From positions 3,782,001 to 3,846,000 of the forward strand of contig NZ_JAJFZL010000001.1 of the NCBI RefSeq assembly GCF_020733635.1: a stretch of DNA of 64,000 bases. Reading direction: 5' to 3'. Shown in pieces: positions 4,189-64,000 of this stretch (position 1 is its first letter; each line of letters opens with the position of its first letter). Below the pieces are notes generated by a model, which saw nothing but the letters and a program-made list of their open reading frames with translations, ran no database searches and was not told the DNA's origin. The position numbers were made by a program, and so were the translations under genes. Source of the stretch: Nocardia spumae (lineage in GTDB: Bacteria; Actinomycetota; Actinomycetes; Mycobacteriales; Mycobacteriaceae).

Positions 4189-5055
4189 ATGCCCGACCAG
4201 CGAACAGTCAGCGTACTCGGCCTGGGCGCGATGGGGCGGGCGCTGGCAGGCGCCGCACTGCGCGCCGGCCACCGCGTCCCGGTGTGGAACCGCACCGCCG
4301 GCAAGGACACCGATCTCGTCACCGCAGGCGCCCGTCACACGGCGACTCCGGCGGCGGCGATCAGCGGCAGCGACCTCGTCATCGTGTGCCTGCTGGACCA
4401 TGCCTCCGTGCACAGCGTGCTCGATCCGATCGCGGCCGAACTGTCGGACGTCGCGGTGGTCAACCTGACCAGCACCACCCCCGGGGAGTCACGGGAACTG
4501 GCGAGCTGGGCCCGCGCCCACGACATCGCCTTTCTCGACGGCGGCATCATGGCCGTCCCCGACATGATCGGCGGCCCCGCCGCCTCGATCCTCTACAGCG
4601 GCGACGCCGCGGCCTTCGACAGCGCACAGCAGGTCCTCGAGCTGTTCGGGTCCGCCGAATTCCTCGGCGCCGACCCCGGCCTGGCCGCGGCCCACGATTT
4701 CGCCCTGCTGGCGGCGATGTACGCCATGTTCGCGGGCTTCGCGCACGGCGCGGCGATGCTGCGCTCGGCGGGGGTCGGCGCCGCGGCATTCGCCGAACGC
4801 GCGGTTCCATGGCTGACGGCGATGACCGGCTCACTGCCGTGGCAAGCGCAGTTCATCGACAGCGGCGACTACCGCACCTCGGTGCAGAACCTGCACTTCA
4901 ACAAGGCCGCCCTCGATGCGATCGTGCGGGCCGGGCGCGAGGCCGGAATAGCCGTCGACGTGCTTCGGCCGGTCAAAGCCCTGATCGACGAGCAAGTCGC
5001 CGATGGTTACGGCGAGCAGGCCTTCGCCCGGATCGTGGAGGGCCTGCGGGGCTGA
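4189..5055 (+). CDS. NAD(P)-binding beta-hydroxyacid dehydrogenase / imine-reductase-like protein
   Basis: 288 residues. The N-terminal Rossmann fold has VLGLGAMGRALA and WNRTAGK, the NADP-type pattern of the 6-phosphogluconate/3-hydroxyisobutyrate dehydrogenase superfamily. The helical C-terminal half (about 165-285) carries the dimerisation helices. The segment LDGGIMAVPDMIG resembles the imine-reductase-like subgroup more than true hydroxyisobutyrate dehydrogenases. It is divergent from the HxlR regulator and probably controlled by it. The substrate (an imine, iminium or small hydroxyacid) is not predictable. Confidence 0.85.
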   Translation: MPDQRTVSVLGLGAMGRALAGAALRAGHRVPVWNRTAGKDTDLVTAGARHTATPAAAISGSDLVIVCLLDHASVHSVLDPIAAELSDVAVVNLTSTTPGESRELASWARAHDIAFLDGGIMAVPDMIGGPAASILYSGDAAAFDSAQQVLELFGSAEFLGADPGLAAAHDFALLAAMYAMFAGFAHGAAMLRSAGVGAAAFAERAVPWLTAMTGSLPWQAQFIDSGDYRTSVQNLHFNKAALDAIVRAGREAGIAVDVLRPVKALIDEQVADGYGEQAFARIVEGLRG

Positions 5056-59449: not shown

Positions 59450-61057
59450 ATGAAACGAATCATCGCGCCGGCGCTCGCACTCACCGCGACGGTGGCCATC
59501 GCCGCCTGTGCGAACACCTCCGGCACCGGCGGCGACGCCGGGCCGCCGCAACCGGGCGGCACCCTGCGTTACGGTTTGTCGCAGGCGCCGACCTGCTCGG
59601 ACCCCGCCCAGGCCGGCACCAACCAGACCCTGTACGTGACCCGGCAGATCGTCGATTCGCTCACCGACCAGGATCCCGCCAGTGGCGAGATCAAGCCCTG
59701 GCTGGCGACGTCCTGGCAGGTGAGCCCGGACGCGAAGACCTTCACCTTCCACCTGCGGCCCGATGTCACCTTCAGTGACGGCACCCCGCTGACCGCCACC
59801 TCGGTGCAGAAGAACTTCGACGCCGTGGTGCACACCCTCACGGCGGCGAAGGCGCCACTGGGGGCGAGCTACCTGTCCGGATACGCGGGTACGACCGTGG
59901 TCGCTCCGCTGACCGCCGAAGTTCACTTCGACGCGCCGAACGCCCAATTCCTGCAGGCGTCCTCGACACCGCAGCTGGGTATCCTCGCCGACGCGACCAC
60001 CGCGAAACCGGCCGAACAGCGCTGCCTCGGCGACGATATCGGCAGCGGCCCGTTCGTCTATGCCGGCTACCGGCAGGACGTATCGGCGGCCCTGGTGAAA
60101 CGGACCGGATACCGGTGGGGATCAGCGGTCTTCGCGCACCCCGGCGAAGCGTATCTGGATCGCATCGAATTCACGGTGGTGCCCGAGGCCGGGGTGCGGA
60201 CCGGGAGCCTGTCGTCGAACCAGCTCGACGCCGTCAGTGACGCCCTGCCACAGGATGTTCCGCAGCTCGAGGCCACCGGCGCGAAGGTACAGTTCGCCTC
60301 GAATCCGGGCGTGCCGTTCGGTCTGCAACCGAATCTGAGCCGGGCGCCACTGTCGGACCCCGCGGTGCGTCAGGCGCTCCTGCACGGGATCGACCGCAGA
60401 CAGCTCGTGGATACCGTCCTGGGGCCGCAGTTCCGTGCGGCGACCGGTTCCCTGGCCTCGAAAACACCCGCCTACGTCGACCTTTCCGCGCAGCTCGGCT
60501 ACGACCCCGGCCAGGCGCGCCGGATCCTGGATCAGGCCGGATGGGTGCCCGGCGGTGACGGTATCCGGGTCAAGGACGGGCGCCGCCTGTCGTTCGGGGT
60601 GCTGTTCAGCACCGCGTTCGCCGGCAATCAGGCCACCGTGGAGCTGGTGCAACAGCAACTGCGCGCGATCGGGGTCGATCTGCGGCTCGAACTCGCGGCC
60701 GCCGGCGACTACACCGCCCGGCAGAACGCCGGAGATTTCGACGCCACCTACTACAACACCACTCGTGCCGACGGCGACATCCTGCGTACCACCTTCGGCC
60801 GTGGCCAGCGAAACCTCAACCAGCGCGGGCCGATTCCGGCGTTGGACGGTGCACTGGCCGAGCAGCTGTCGACCACCGACCCGGCCGCGCGGGCCGCGGT
60901 CATCGGGCAGGCGCAGCGGGCGGTGATCGACAACGGCCTGTGGTTGCCGACCATCGAACTGTCGCAGGCGATCGGCGTGTCCGGCGCGGTGCACGACCTG
61001 ACCTTCGAGGCCTCGGCGCGGCTGCAGTTCCACGACACCTGGTTGAGCACACGATGA
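59450..61057 (+). CDS. Oligopeptide/dipeptide-type ABC transporter substrate-binding lipoprotein (TIGR04028-like)
   Basis: 535 residues with lipobox AIAAC (Cys20). Family 5 solute-binding features: GGTLRYGLSQAPTCSDPAQAG, WLATSWQVSPDAKTFTFHLRPDVTFSDGTPLTA, GSGPFVYAGY and AVRQALLHGIDRRQLV. From memory it matches TIGR04028 (KPN_01854 family), whose loci also contain luciferase-like monooxygenases and peroxidases in other bacteria, suggesting uptake of an organosulfur or related compound. It overlaps the permease gene by ATGA. Confidence 0.88.
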   Translation: MKRIIAPALALTATVAIAACANTSGTGGDAGPPQPGGTLRYGLSQAPTCSDPAQAGTNQTLYVTRQIVDSLTDQDPASGEIKPWLATSWQVSPDAKTFTFHLRPDVTFSDGTPLTATSVQKNFDAVVHTLTAAKAPLGASYLSGYAGTTVVAPLTAEVHFDAPNAQFLQASSTPQLGILADATTAKPAEQRCLGDDIGSGPFVYAGYRQDVSAALVKRTGYRWGSAVFAHPGEAYLDRIEFTVVPEAGVRTGSLSSNQLDAVSDALPQDVPQLEATGAKVQFASNPGVPFGLQPNLSRAPLSDPAVRQALLHGIDRRQLVDTVLGPQFRAATGSLASKTPAYVDLSAQLGYDPGQARRILDQAGWVPGGDGIRVKDGRRLSFGVLFSTAFAGNQATVELVQQQLRAIGVDLRLELAAAGDYTARQNAGDFDATYYNTTRADGDILRTTFGRGQRNLNQRGPIPALDGALAEQLSTTDPAARAAVIGQAQRAVIDNGLWLPTIELSQAIGVSGAVHDLTFEASARLQFHDTWLSTR

Positions 61058-62019
61058 GTCCGCTGACGCGCTATGCGATCGTCCGTGTGCTGCAGGCGAT
61101 CGGCGTGTTGTGGGCCGCGTTCACGATCTCGTTCGCGGTGCTGTTCCTGCTGCCCTCGGATCCGGTGCAGCTCGCCGTCGACGCCGATCCGGGCGCGGCC
61201 CCCGACCCGGCCGCGATCGCGGAACTGAAGGCCAGGTACGGATTGGACCGTTCGGTGCCGGAACAGTATTGGACCGCCCTCACCCATGCTGTGCGCGGTG
61301 ACCTGGGACGCTCCCTGAACACCGGGCAATCCGTCACCGGCGCGCTGGCGCAGTCGATTCCCTCCACCCTGGCGCTGGCCGGGTTCGCGCTGATTCTGGC
61401 GATCGTCTTCGGGGCCGCGCTGGCGGTGGCCGCGGCCTACACCCGGCGGCGGTGGCTGCGGAATCTGCTGACGGCGTTGCCACCGATCGGTGCGGCGATG
61501 CCCACCTTCTGGGTGGGATTGATACTGCTGCAACTGTTCTCGTTCCGCTTGCGGCTCGTCCCGGCATTCGGCGGGACGGGATTCCAGGGCACGATCCTGC
61601 CCGCGATCACACTCGCCGTTCCCGTCGGCGCGGTCATCGCGCAGGTGTTCTACAGCGGCCTGGCGGCCACCTGGCGGCAGCCGTTCGTCGATGTGGCCTT
61701 CGCCAAGGGGGCGTCGCGGCTGTGGGTGCAGTGGCGGCATGTGCTGCGGGCCGCGGCGGGACCGGCGCTCACCGTCGCGGGACTGTGGGTGGGCACGGTG
61801 CTGGCGGGTTCGGTGGTGGTCGAAACGGTGTTCTCGCGTGACGGTCTGGGCCGGCTGACGCAGAGCGCGGTACTGCATCAAGATATTCCGGTCGTGCAGG
61901 GCATCGTGCTGGTCGCCGCACTCGCCTTCGTGGTGGTCAATCTGGCGGTGGACCTGCTCTATCCCCTGCTGGACCCCCGCGTCGCCGGTGCCGGCGAGAA
62001 AGTGCGCGCTCATGTCTGA
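61054..62019 (+). CDS. ABC transporter permease (OppB/DppB type)
   Basis: 321 residues. Six membrane helices; the EAA-like loop is FAKGASRLWVQWRHVLRAAAGPALT. The start VRVLQAIGVLWAAFTISFAVLFLLPSDPVQ and ELKARYGLDRSVPEQYW are typical of the DppB type. ATG 61054 overlaps the previous stop, and the next gene overlaps by 8 nt. With the following permease it forms the membrane channel of the importer. Confidence 0.93.
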   Translation: MSPLTRYAIVRVLQAIGVLWAAFTISFAVLFLLPSDPVQLAVDADPGAAPDPAAIAELKARYGLDRSVPEQYWTALTHAVRGDLGRSLNTGQSVTGALAQSIPSTLALAGFALILAIVFGAALAVAAAYTRRRWLRNLLTALPPIGAAMPTFWVGLILLQLFSFRLRLVPAFGGTGFQGTILPAITLAVPVGAVIAQVFYSGLAATWRQPFVDVAFAKGASRLWVQWRHVLRAAAGPALTVAGLWVGTVLAGSVVVETVFSRDGLGRLTQSAVLHQDIPVVQGIVLVAALAFVVVNLAVDLLYPLLDPRVAGAGEKVRAHV

Positions 62020-62881
62020 CACGCTGATCATCGCCCATCCCGCCCGCGTCGCGGACCTGCGCCGGGCGCTGGCGCCCGCACGCCTGCGCGCCCGCGCCGG
62101 GCTGGCGGTGTCGGTGCTCGTGCTGGTCGTGGTCCTCGGCTGGGCGGTGGCGCCGTCGCTGCTGGCCGGCGGCGATCCGCGCGCCGGGGTACCGGCGGAG
62201 AAGTTCCGCGGCCCGAGCCCGCAGCACTGGTTCGGCACCGACAATCTCGGCCGCGATCTGTACACCCGGGTGGCGCACGGGGCGGCGCTGACACTCTCGG
62301 CGACGGTATGCGCCGTGCTGCTGGGGCTGGTCGTGGGCTCGGCGATCGGTCTCGTGTCCGGAACTCTGGGCGGGACCCTCGACTCGCTCGTCATGCGCGG
62401 TGTCGATGTGCTGCTGGCGATTCCGGAGCTGCTGTCGGCACTGGTCCTCATCACGGTGCTCGGACTGGGTACCCGGAATGTGGCCATCGCGGTCGGGGTG
62501 GCGCTCATCGCGCGGTTCGCGCGGGTGATGCGCGCGGAAGTGCTGCGGGTGCGGCGCGCACCCTATGTGGAGGCGGCGTTCGCCTCGGGCGTGCGCTGGC
62601 ACACGGTCCTGCTGCGCCACATCCTGCGCACCGCGTACGCACCCGTCGCCGCGCTCGCGGCAGTCGAATTCGGTGTCGCGGTACTGGCGATCTCGTCGCT
62701 GAGCTTCCTCGGCTACGGCGCCGCGCCGCCGACGCCGGAATGGGGATCGTTGATCTCGGAGGGCCGCAACTACCTCGTCCTCGCCTGGTGGATGACCGCC
62801 CTGCCCGGCTCGGTGATCGTCGCGGTGGTGCTCGCCGCCCAGCGCGTCGGACGCGCGATCGGGAACCAGGAGGACCGATGA
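62012..62881 (+). CDS. ABC transporter permease (OppC/DppC type)
   Basis: 289 residues. The N-terminal part has GPSPQHWFGTDNLGRDLYTRVAHGA, the DppC signature, and the EAA loop is EAAFASGVRWHTVLLRHILRTAYAP. Its stop codon TGA (62879-62881) is inside ATGA, the start of the repeat-derived ORF. In the ancestral arrangement the same ATGA overlap probably began the ATPase gene directly. Confidence 0.93.
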   Translation: MSDTLIIAHPARVADLRRALAPARLRARAGLAVSVLVLVVVLGWAVAPSLLAGGDPRAGVPAEKFRGPSPQHWFGTDNLGRDLYTRVAHGAALTLSATVCAVLLGLVVGSAIGLVSGTLGGTLDSLVMRGVDVLLAIPELLSALVLITVLGLGTRNVAIAVGVALIARFARVMRAEVLRVRRAPYVEAAFASGVRWHTVLLRHILRTAYAPVAALAAVEFGVAVLAISSLSFLGYGAAPPTPEWGSLISEGRNYLVLAWWMTALPGSVIVAVVLAAQRVGRAIGNQEDR

Positions 62882-63021
62882 GACACACTCGCGCAGCCGC
62901 TCACCGGTCCGACCGGGTGCGGGTGTCCCGCAAGACTCGAGGACCCATGAGACACACTCGCGCAGCCGCTCACCGGTCCCACCGGGTGCGGGTGTCCCGC
63001 AGTGCACAGGAGGACCGATGA
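62867..63021 (+). repeat. Two-copy 69-bp direct repeat flanked by a 15-bp duplication
   Basis: Repeat bodies 62871-62932 and 62940-63001 are 62 bp each, 69 bp apart and differ at only two bases. The outer flanks are the identical 15-mer CAGGAGGACCGATGA at 62867-62881 and 63007-63021, so the insert is framed like a target duplication. Each copy contains the short hairpin GCGGGTGTCCCGC. The repeat lies exactly between the permease and ATPase genes. Confidence 0.9.
62878..63021 (+). CDS. Repeat-derived 47-residue basic micro-ORF
   Basis: ATG 62878 overlaps the permease stop (ATGA) and its own TGA overlaps the ATPase ATG (ATGA at 63018-63021), so ribosomes could translate it between the two genes. 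It consists of MRHTRAAAHRSDRVRVSR, a short link KTRGP, then nearly the same 18 residues again (one Asp-to-His change), and SAQEDR. It is highly basic (many Arg and His) and has no known domain. Whether it is a real peptide or only a coupling device is open. Confidence 0.5.
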   Translation: MRHTRAAAHRSDRVRVSRKTRGPMRHTRAAAHRSHRVRVSRSAQEDR

Positions 63022-64000
63022 CGGATCGAATCCTGTTGCGGGTCGATGATCTGCGCGTTCGGTACCCCGGCACGCACGCCGAGGCGGTGGCCGGTGCGAC
63101 GCTCGAGGTCGCGCGCGGGGAGACCCTCGCGTTGGTCGGTGAATCCGGTTCGGGCAAATCCACTCTCGCCCATGCCGTGATCGGACTGCTGCCGGAGTCG
63201 GCGACGGTGTCCGGTGGCGGAATCGTCTTCGACGGTGACCGGCTCGACACCGCGTCCGAACGCACCCTGCGCGGTTTCCGGGGCGCGCGAATCGGGCTGG
63301 TGCCCCAGGATCCGGGAACATCGCTGAATCCGGTGCAGCGCATCGGCGATCAGGTCGCCGAAGTGCTGCGTATTCATCGTCGCGCCGACCGCCGCACCGC
63401 GCGGGTGGAGGCGGTGCGGCTGCTCACCGAGGCCGGCCTGGACCGGCCGCAGGTGCGGGCCCGGCAGTATCCGCAGGACCTGTCCGGCGGTCAGCGCCAG
63501 CGGGTGCTGATCGCGATCGCGCTGGCGTGCGAGCCGGAACTGGTGATCGCCGACGAACCGACCAGCGCACTCGATGTCACCGTCGCGCGCCGGATCCTCG
63601 ACCACCTCGCCGAGCGCACCGCACAGCTCGGCACCGCCGTGCTGCTGATCACCCACGACCTCGCCGTGGCCGCCGACCGCGCCGACCGGATCGCGGTGAT
63701 GCGGGGCGGGCGGATCGTCGAATCCGGAACCACCGCAGCCGTTCTCACCGACCCGAAGCACGAATACACCGCCCGGTTGCTGGCCGCCGCGCCGCGCCTC
63801 GACGCACCGGTGCGCCGCGGCCGCCCGCGCGCCGAACGTCCCCTGCTGGTGGCGACGGGACTGCGGAAGAGTTTCCGCGTCGCGCGAGGCGTGCGCACCG
63901 ACGCGGTCGACGAGGTGTCGCTGGAGCTCGATCGCGGCGAAACACTCGCCCTGGTGGGCGAATCGGGTTCCGGCAAGACCACCGCCGCCCGCATCATCAC
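63018..64000 (+). CDS. Dual-domain ABC transporter ATP-binding protein (DppD-DppF fusion), 3' truncated
   Basis: The open frame runs from ATG 63018 past the window end (at least 327 residues). The first ATPase has Walker [11 protein letters not shown]-loop [11 protein letters not shown], signature LSGGQRQRV, Walker [13 protein letters not shown] and the H-loop Thr-His-Asp ([17 protein letters not shown]). A second ATPase begins near residue 265 with [16 protein letters not shown] and Walker [10 protein letters not shown]. Fused NBDs like this power dipeptide/nickel-type importers with the upstream permeases and lipoprotein. Confidence 0.93.

Follow-up and report, generated by a model that had tools for sequence, protein, structure and literature searches.

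Among the short repeats that lie between bacterial genes, the closest in kind to the element treated here are the mycobacterial interspersed repetitive units (MIRUs), which Supply et al. reportedly described in 1997, with a further account in 2000. MIRUs are used for typing. The element in question is a pair of direct repeats between the permease and ATPase genes of an ABC (ATP-binding cassette) transporter operon in Nocardia spumae, lying in a stretch of 64,000 nucleotides (contig NZ_JAJFZL010000001.1, positions 3,782,001 to 3,846,000), which is called the window below. The pair is probably one locus of a dispersed, non-autonomous family of MIRU-like coupling elements. REP elements with RAYT transposases are likewise short dispersed hairpin repeats outside genes, but the Nocardia hairpin holds a ribosome site and a start codon in coding phase, and its own genome is without a Y1 transposase.

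Published accounts describe MIRUs as tandem repeats of 46–101 bp that occupy 41 loci, of which 12 vary (PMC3914561), and that insert at start codons with their open reading frame (ORF) coupled at -4 nt (PMC12548453). The latter text also sets out translational coupling as a short upstream ORF bringing ribosomes to the next start. There the gene arrangement is fixed, whereas the Nocardia family installs coupling by means of a dispersed repeat. Enterobacterial RU elements of 127, 168, and 103 bp are introduced, in the opening of the abstract, as MITE-like small mobile intergenic sequences able to carry ORFs (PMC2759123). The Nocardia family shares this ability to carry a reading frame, however start/stop coupling is absent from the description of RU in that opening.

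The repeat pair in the window

The permease gene (62012–62881; PF00528 on 62012–62878, E 1.5e-21) lies upstream of the pair and the ATPase gene (63018–64000, running past the window end; PF00005 on 63018–63998, E 5.8e-36) lies downstream, both on the + strand like every feature of this locus. Between them are two direct repeat units of 63 nt, at 62870–62932 and 62939–63001, which are 97% identical and spaced 69 bp apart. The pair is framed by the 15-mer CAGGAGGACCGATGA, found in identical copies at 62867–62881 and 63007–63021, with a degenerate copy (80%) at 62936. Each identical copy carries a ribosome site and an ATGA, and the left one takes in the last codons and stop of the permease gene. 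A micro-ORF of 47 codons (62878–63021) runs through both units, fused in one frame. Its ATG at 62878 overlaps the permease stop (TGA, 62879–62881) and its own stop (63019–63021) overlaps the ATPase ATG at 63018, both in the form ATGA. The distance from the start at 62878 to that at 62947 is 69 (0 mod 3), and from there to 63018 it is 71 (2 mod 3). The hairpin sequence GCGGGTGTCCCGC is present in both units, at 62919–62931 and 62988–63000. An earlier note, made from the letters of the window, had described two near-identical bodies of 62 bp. The repeat is real, but the units are alike over 63 nt instead of 62. The same 15-mer on both borders, a hairpin in each copy, and a 47-codon frame coupled at both ends, which that note had also reported, were all recovered.

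The micro-ORF peptide is rich in R and H and has no match in Pfam, and Rfam gives no match up to E 1 in 60000–64000. A search for inverted pairs (seed 9, at least 12 nt) in 62600–63300 found none and hence no terminal inverted repeats of the kind seen in MITEs; this search passes over the arms of stem 1, described below, which contain one mismatch and are not terminal. A covariance model of the unit, R1, matches unit 1 with 87.6 bits (E 2.3e-17) and unit 2 with 73 bits (E 7.5e-14), and finds only this unit pair in the 64-kb window.

A dispersed family

The alignment A1, made with MAFFT, took 51 of 67 distinct units, and R1 was built from 51 units. In the genome of the window, BLAST finds 27 places at E ≤1e-3, the window locus included. 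R1, with 150 of 19198 candidates scored, finds 45 units with E <1e-3, grouped by hand into 32 loci. Within the genus, 63 of 98 genomes have a BLAST match at E ≤1e-3, single-contig assemblies among them; eight candidates were scored per genome and these counts are lower bounds. The search of the genome and its relatives that the earlier note had named as a check thus returned many other places and many other genomes, so its first refuting condition, a repeat confined to this locus, does not apply.

In a sample of the taxonomic family, 36 of 151 genomes match at E ≤0.01 and six reach 1e-6, four from the same genus (G000, G003, G073, G225) along with G116 and G122. The weak matches of this sample (28 genomes, E 6e-4 to 1e-2) were taken as chance; 12 of the 28 were read by eye, and none of these combines ribosome site, RTGA, and core, with an ATGGATGA present in two (L073, L074). 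The order and phylum samples were searched with stricter filters. At 1e-5, 19 of the 249 genomes in the order sample match, comprising three from the same genus and 16 from a family, f14, which appears to be Pseudonocardiaceae. Only two of 246 match in the phylum sample, both from the same genus. An exact scan for GACCGGGTGCGGGTGTCCCGC, a conserved part of the unit, gives at least 120 stretches, and the matches listed include Nocardia, Amycolatopsis, Saccharopolyspora, Prauserella, Streptoalloteichus, Skermania, Myceligenerans, and Antribacter. As the scan also names Myceligenerans and Antribacter, the phylum sample gives an incomplete picture. By taxonomy, Amycolatopsis belongs to Pseudonocardiaceae, Antribacter to Promicromonosporaceae, and Skermania to Gordoniaceae. 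Judged by sequence matches, members of the family were therefore found in Nocardia, Skermania, Pseudonocardiaceae, and Promicromonosporaceae. A literature search gave no description of the repeat family in Nocardia or Pseudonocardiaceae, which is a weak negative as most subscription literature lies outside the search.

Filled and empty junctions

The window permease occurs in 76 genomes, and 30 orthologous loci were read at the junction. Six are filled and 24 are empty. Two units are present in the genome of the window, G037, and G056, and one in G002, G035, and G078, a variation of 1–2 units among six genomes; G002 and G035 additionally retain a unit fragment. The permease stop overlaps an RTG start in 23 of the 24 empty junctions, and in 13 of those 23 the overlap start opens directly into an ORF of 336–495 codons. 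The earlier note had compared the operon with a hypothetical form lacking the repeat, in which the permease stop would overlap the ATPase start directly, and this is the arrangement that the empty relatives have.

Other small frames also occur at this junction. In G035 and G002 (L115, L116) the remaining unit reads in frame into the ATPase, giving an ORF of 495 codons from the junction ATG and so an N-terminal extension. A different short ORF of 61–77 codons begins at the permease stop overlap in nine unit-free relatives (L119, L120, L123, L124, L126, L128, L134, L135, L136), representing another small gene at the same operon junction.

Fourteen further loci of the genome were compared in the same way (100 of 101 regions fetched, 100 relative junctions read), and three of them give clear filled and empty pairs. 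The L016 locus is empty in G078 (GAAGGAGGCACGATGAGTATT) and filled in G035, where the 16-bp empty-site sequence GAAGGAGGCACGATGA stands at each side. The L013 locus is empty in G078 (ACAGGAGGTGTCGTGACATC) and filled in G002 with ACAGGAGGCGTCGTGA at each side, and the L021 locus is empty in G078 (GAGGCGGCGCGATGAGG) and filled in G000 with GAGGCGGCGCGATGAG at each side, with deletion remnants in G002 and G035. At all three loci the host ribosome site and start are present in duplicate. In the remnants at the L021 locus (L209 in G002 and L212 in G035), about 12 bases of unit end and spacer lie between the direct repeats, which corresponds to an internal unit deletion.

For wider counts, 146 arrays were reduced to 119 by flank likeness and to 99 without right-hand unit remnants; arrays were left aside if they lay close to the end of a locus, had a unit spacing <50, or fell beyond the core match limit. 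The longest identical stretch between left and right sides is at least 14 nt in 28 of the 99 arrays, 10–13 nt in eight, and shorter in 63. It ranges from 4 to 20 nt, against the fixed length of a MITE target duplication, and later mutation could explain the spread. At L018, L027, and partly L019, the left arm is common to other loci and unlike the empty or right side, suggesting that the duplicate decayed or that the element brought its own start. The scattered copies, the junctions that are filled in some genomes and empty in others, and the direct repeats of junction sequence support the description in the earlier note of a mobile repeat that keeps translational coupling. Arrays presumably grow by recombination between direct repeats.

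Orientation and reading phase

Units are strongly oriented with respect to their host genes. Of 119 arrays, 92 show a long ORF ending at the unit's entry when the sense strand is read, against 14 for the antisense strand. For the 105 units with a recognisable start, the upstream stop forms a 4-base overlap with it in 52, lies within -12 to +10 in 23, and lies within 40 in 11. At the other end, 31 of the 119 arrays have a micro-ORF that stops at the downstream RTGA, and a further 17 have one that stops no more than 12 nt from it. In eight it runs in frame into the downstream gene; 16 have no recognised downstream ORF and 14 have no start.

Reading phase is also biased. Tandem spacings of 68–77 bp (n=45) fall into phases 0, 1, and 2 in 18, 3, and 24 cases, the scarcity of phase 1 having p 2.4e-5. 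From unit start to downstream start (n=89), 49 distances are in phase 2 (p 2e-5), with 18 in phase 0 and 22 in phase 1 (p 0.05). On the sequence, phase 2 corresponds to overlap and phase 0 to fusion, while phase 1 would break a relay of ribosomes. The window has one of each permitted kind, phase 0 (69) and phase 2 (71). In the Skermania genome four of six multi-unit arrays have a 68-bp period and one has 70, where the commonest overall period is 71; these arrays keep phase because 68 is 71 minus three bases.

A covarying stem around the start codon

Within a unit the ribosome site and start (AGGAGGNNNNRTGA) come first, followed by a loop that contains GCGCAGC, a 3' arm, and then GACCGGGTGCGGGTGTCCCGC. 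In predicted folds, the stretch that extends from the ribosome site to the end of the start codon pairs with the 3' arm as stem 1, and stem 2 is GCGGG-TGT-CCCGC. Stem 1 of window unit 1 is formed by GGACCGATGAG (62872–62882), which includes the start codon, and CTCACCGGTCC (62900–62910). In unit 2 the arms that stand in the same register are GGACCCATGAG (62941–62951) and the stretch at 62969–62979. Stem 2 is GCGGGTGTCCCGC in both units. Across the aligned units, the nucleotides of stem 2 and of the sequence preceding it show almost no variation.

In the 51-unit alignment, pairing extends to 87.3% of the cells of stems 1 and 2 (78.6% in shuffles), 93 cells have changed on both sides against 38.3, and covariation is 0.280 against 0.133, each reached in 0 of 500 shuffles. 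Registers slid along the alignment give at most 52.5% pairing and 0.071 covariation. Both-sided change affects 10 of the 14 pairs of stem 1 and none of stem 2, which hardly varies. RNAalifold keeps only six pairs of stem 1, together with stem 2. As shared descent can mimic covariation, stem 1 was recounted in the 25 aligned units that come from the genome of the window; 86.6% of positions are paired, where exchanging whole arms gives 73.3% on average (0 of 1000). The arm duplex energy in the 99 arrays from all sources is -18.42 kcal/mol against -12.29 with arms exchanged (0 of 2000), and ungapped arm comparisons agree in direction. As judged from these alignments, the stem around the start codon is a covarying one, a feature that the earlier note did not mention. 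Four other units folded in sense gave z-scores of -3.12, -3.51, -2.82, and -1.32.

A 3' arm that is copied from the target, or that chooses it, was considered as a source of this match and rejected, except as part of the bolder version given below. At the 11 loci with an empty relative, the locus's own arm does not fit better than the 119 arms (Fisher p 0.23); the L013 locus alone stands out (0.025), and the positive result with the right-hand repeat is limited to repeats still identical over at least 14 nt. This failure favours compensation after insertion.

Proposed mechanism and alternatives

Genome comparison documents a family with filled and empty sites, direct repeats, varying copy number, biased phase and orientation, and a covarying stem, and at this level the elements appear to move, over evolutionary time, into stop/start junctions, lying in sense and keeping phase. 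In the mechanism favoured here, an element would enter the stop/start junction of two co-directional genes and leave a ribosome site and start on both sides. The upstream stop would then overlap the micro-ORF start, and the micro-ORF stop would overlap the downstream start, or the ORF would run into it. A ribosome finishing the upstream gene could melt the stem, restart, cross the micro-ORF, and reach the next start. Stem 1 would enclose the micro-ORF start codon in the mRNA, so that entry would mainly be by ribosomes arriving from upstream. The arms of stem 1 would change together after insertion. Length and phase of the micro-ORF would count for more than its peptide, which is probably a by-product since the core is conserved at the nucleotide level and the stem region alters residues. 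That the peptide itself may not be the product was not raised in the earlier note. On this arrangement the micro-ORF would be translated, the stem would act as a gate, and expression would be affected, and mobility would be provided by an enzyme acting from elsewhere.

Several observations sit poorly with this mechanism. The genome of the window has no match to the Y1 transposase family (PF01797) and none to reverse transcriptase. Across the genus, 14 of 98 genomes have a Y1 match, and among the 11 genomes with at least eight repeat matches one has Y1 (G087) and four have reverse transcriptase, with no association seen. No long upstream ORF ends at 19 of the 105 units, and the micro-ORF stops early in 26 of 119 arrays and overruns in seven. 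All three frames are mostly open (100, 95, and 97 of 105), which makes frame openness uninformative. The number of pairs changed on both sides and the number of further pair types are not clearly above shuffles (68 and 37 of 500), and G-U cells outnumber A-C cells by only 55 to 40, a weak sign of RNA from the sense strand. The window array as a whole is no more stable than shuffles (z -0.98), unit 1 alone has a z-score of -1.60 in sense and -2.58 in antisense, and unit 2, changed in its arm, does not form its own stem 1. In the longer fold (62855–63040) pairing crosses between units, the 3' arm of unit 2 joining the 5' arm of unit 1. When unit 2 is folded without unit 1 (62933–63025), its 5' arm is unpaired with its own 3' arm, and the latter pairs with the ribosome site and start of the ATPase gene. 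On these folds, the lock in this copy may have decayed in part, or its target may be the ATPase gene.

Alternatively, the stems may matter in DNA, as single-strand hairpins recognised by a transposase, in which case their conservation would reflect mobility and selection would merely tolerate the coupling. This is the strongest of the alternatives, though still unlikely, and it draws on the near invariance of stem 2 and the sequence before it, the frequency of A-C mismatches, and the better antisense fold of window unit 1. It sits less well with stem 1, the arm of which includes the start codon. The arms of stem 1 differ among loci yet stay matched, also in copies common to several species, and a signal used once at transposition would not need such matching. 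In addition, a search limited to Y1 transposases finds none in G000, G002, G010, G035, G037, G056, or G078. A regulatory switch, in which the 3' arm pairs with either the micro-ORF start or the downstream start and the downstream gene opens only to ribosomes crossing the micro-ORF, is rather doubtful and slightly less probable than hairpins in DNA. The pairing of unit 2 with the ATPase start in the shorter window fold would fit, and where direct repeats are at least 14 nt long the 3' arm also matches the right copy, both in 11 single units (-15.25 against -12.06, 2 of 2000) and in 17 multi-unit arrays (-16.74 against -12.43, 0 of 2000). With shorter repeats, however, right-hand pairing is weak or absent (328 of 2000 in eight arrays, 43 of 2000 in 63). 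Folds of 62 single-unit arrays give left-hand pairing of the 3' arm in 38, right-hand pairing in 10, and neither in 14, while the longer window fold pairs the arm of unit 2 elsewhere and Rfam has no match in the region searched.

That the micro-ORF yields a functional basic peptide, making the family a spreading small gene, is improbable. The frame phase is kept and the window peptide is rich in basic residues, but it lacks a Pfam match, and by eye the core is almost invariant at third codon positions too, which points to nucleotide constraint. Residues encoded by the stem region differ from locus to locus, and both tandem fusions and in-frame extensions of downstream genes exist. A local tandem duplication or an assembly artefact, with no mobility at all, would account for the near identity that tandem copies inside a locus often have. 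It is hardly credible beside 45 units at 32 loci in one genome and matches in 63 of 98 genomes of the genus, including single-contig assemblies, which refute it.

A bolder version, which is offered tentatively and seems unlikely, is that these tiny mobile elements form a widespread class in Nocardia and Pseudonocardiaceae and spread because they install a self-contained coupling lock, composed of a start-codon hairpin and a 3' arm that closes either the micro-ORF or the downstream gene, after which the host operon would need an unbroken relay of ribosomes. The host ribosome site and start would be duplicated on insertion (up to ~20 bp), so that at each site host sequence would supply part of the stem.

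Comparison with MIRUs

A MIRU core was used as a query with up to two mismatches allowed. Of 401 genomes 149 hold a match, spread over 21 of 31 genera, with at least five places per genome solely in genus g29 and up to 31 (G228). The matches to this core suggest that g29 is Mycobacterium. Twenty core places were read in five g29 genomes, and 11 of the 20 are flanked by RTGA motifs with a separation of 53 or 77 bp, each of which is 2 mod 3; many have a GAGGAG-like site before the second RTGA. The places are abundant in some g29 genomes (17 and 14 places in G228; also G349, G322, and G374) and absent from others. Tandem spacings of 51, 52, 53, and 74 bp occur in five of the 20 loci.

The Nocardia repeat is similarly short, dispersed, and often tandem (45 units, 32 loci, spacings of 68–77 bp). 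It too lies between co-directional genes with an element ORF overlapping stop and start, and its copy number also varies between related genomes. Sequence gives a different picture. R1 run on the 20 MIRU-core loci with filters off has a best E of 0.02 away from a core and 0.17 over one, showing no visible sequence relationship, and none of the 19 matching genomes of the 249 in the order sample is from g29, with 14 g29 genomes among those listed and no matches in them. MIRU folds show by eye no common start-codon hairpin, unlike the Nocardia family. As the architecture is alike and the sequence is not, the element works like a MIRU but is not one by descent as far as tested. On the sequences compared, it is best read as a new family of MIRU-like kind, MIRU-type coupling itself being already known. 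The earlier note had called a mobile repeat that preserves coupling unusual, which holds only in part since MIRUs are described as doing likewise in PMC12548453.

The same architecture without visible sequence relationship speaks for start/stop junctions as a niche that mobile DNA has occupied repeatedly. Filled and empty pairs, the phase bias, and the covarying start-codon stem make MIRU movement and coupling-driven spread testable in laboratory actinomycetes, and Nocardia could be typed by the variable number of units at these loci. They also call for care in annotation, as units can look like spurious small genes or like N-terminal extensions, as in the ATPase of G002 and G035.

Further observations

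Two arrangements of units stand apart from the arrays counted above. At L009 a diverged single copy (1155–1219, - strand) lies ~0.8 kb from a three-unit array in the opposite orientation (2007–2205, + strand). At L318, from the Pseudonocardiaceae metagenome-assembled genome Dino_bin21, seven core-like matches exactly 24 bp apart occur near 4447; these are possibly an unrelated coding repeat and were left out of the array counts.
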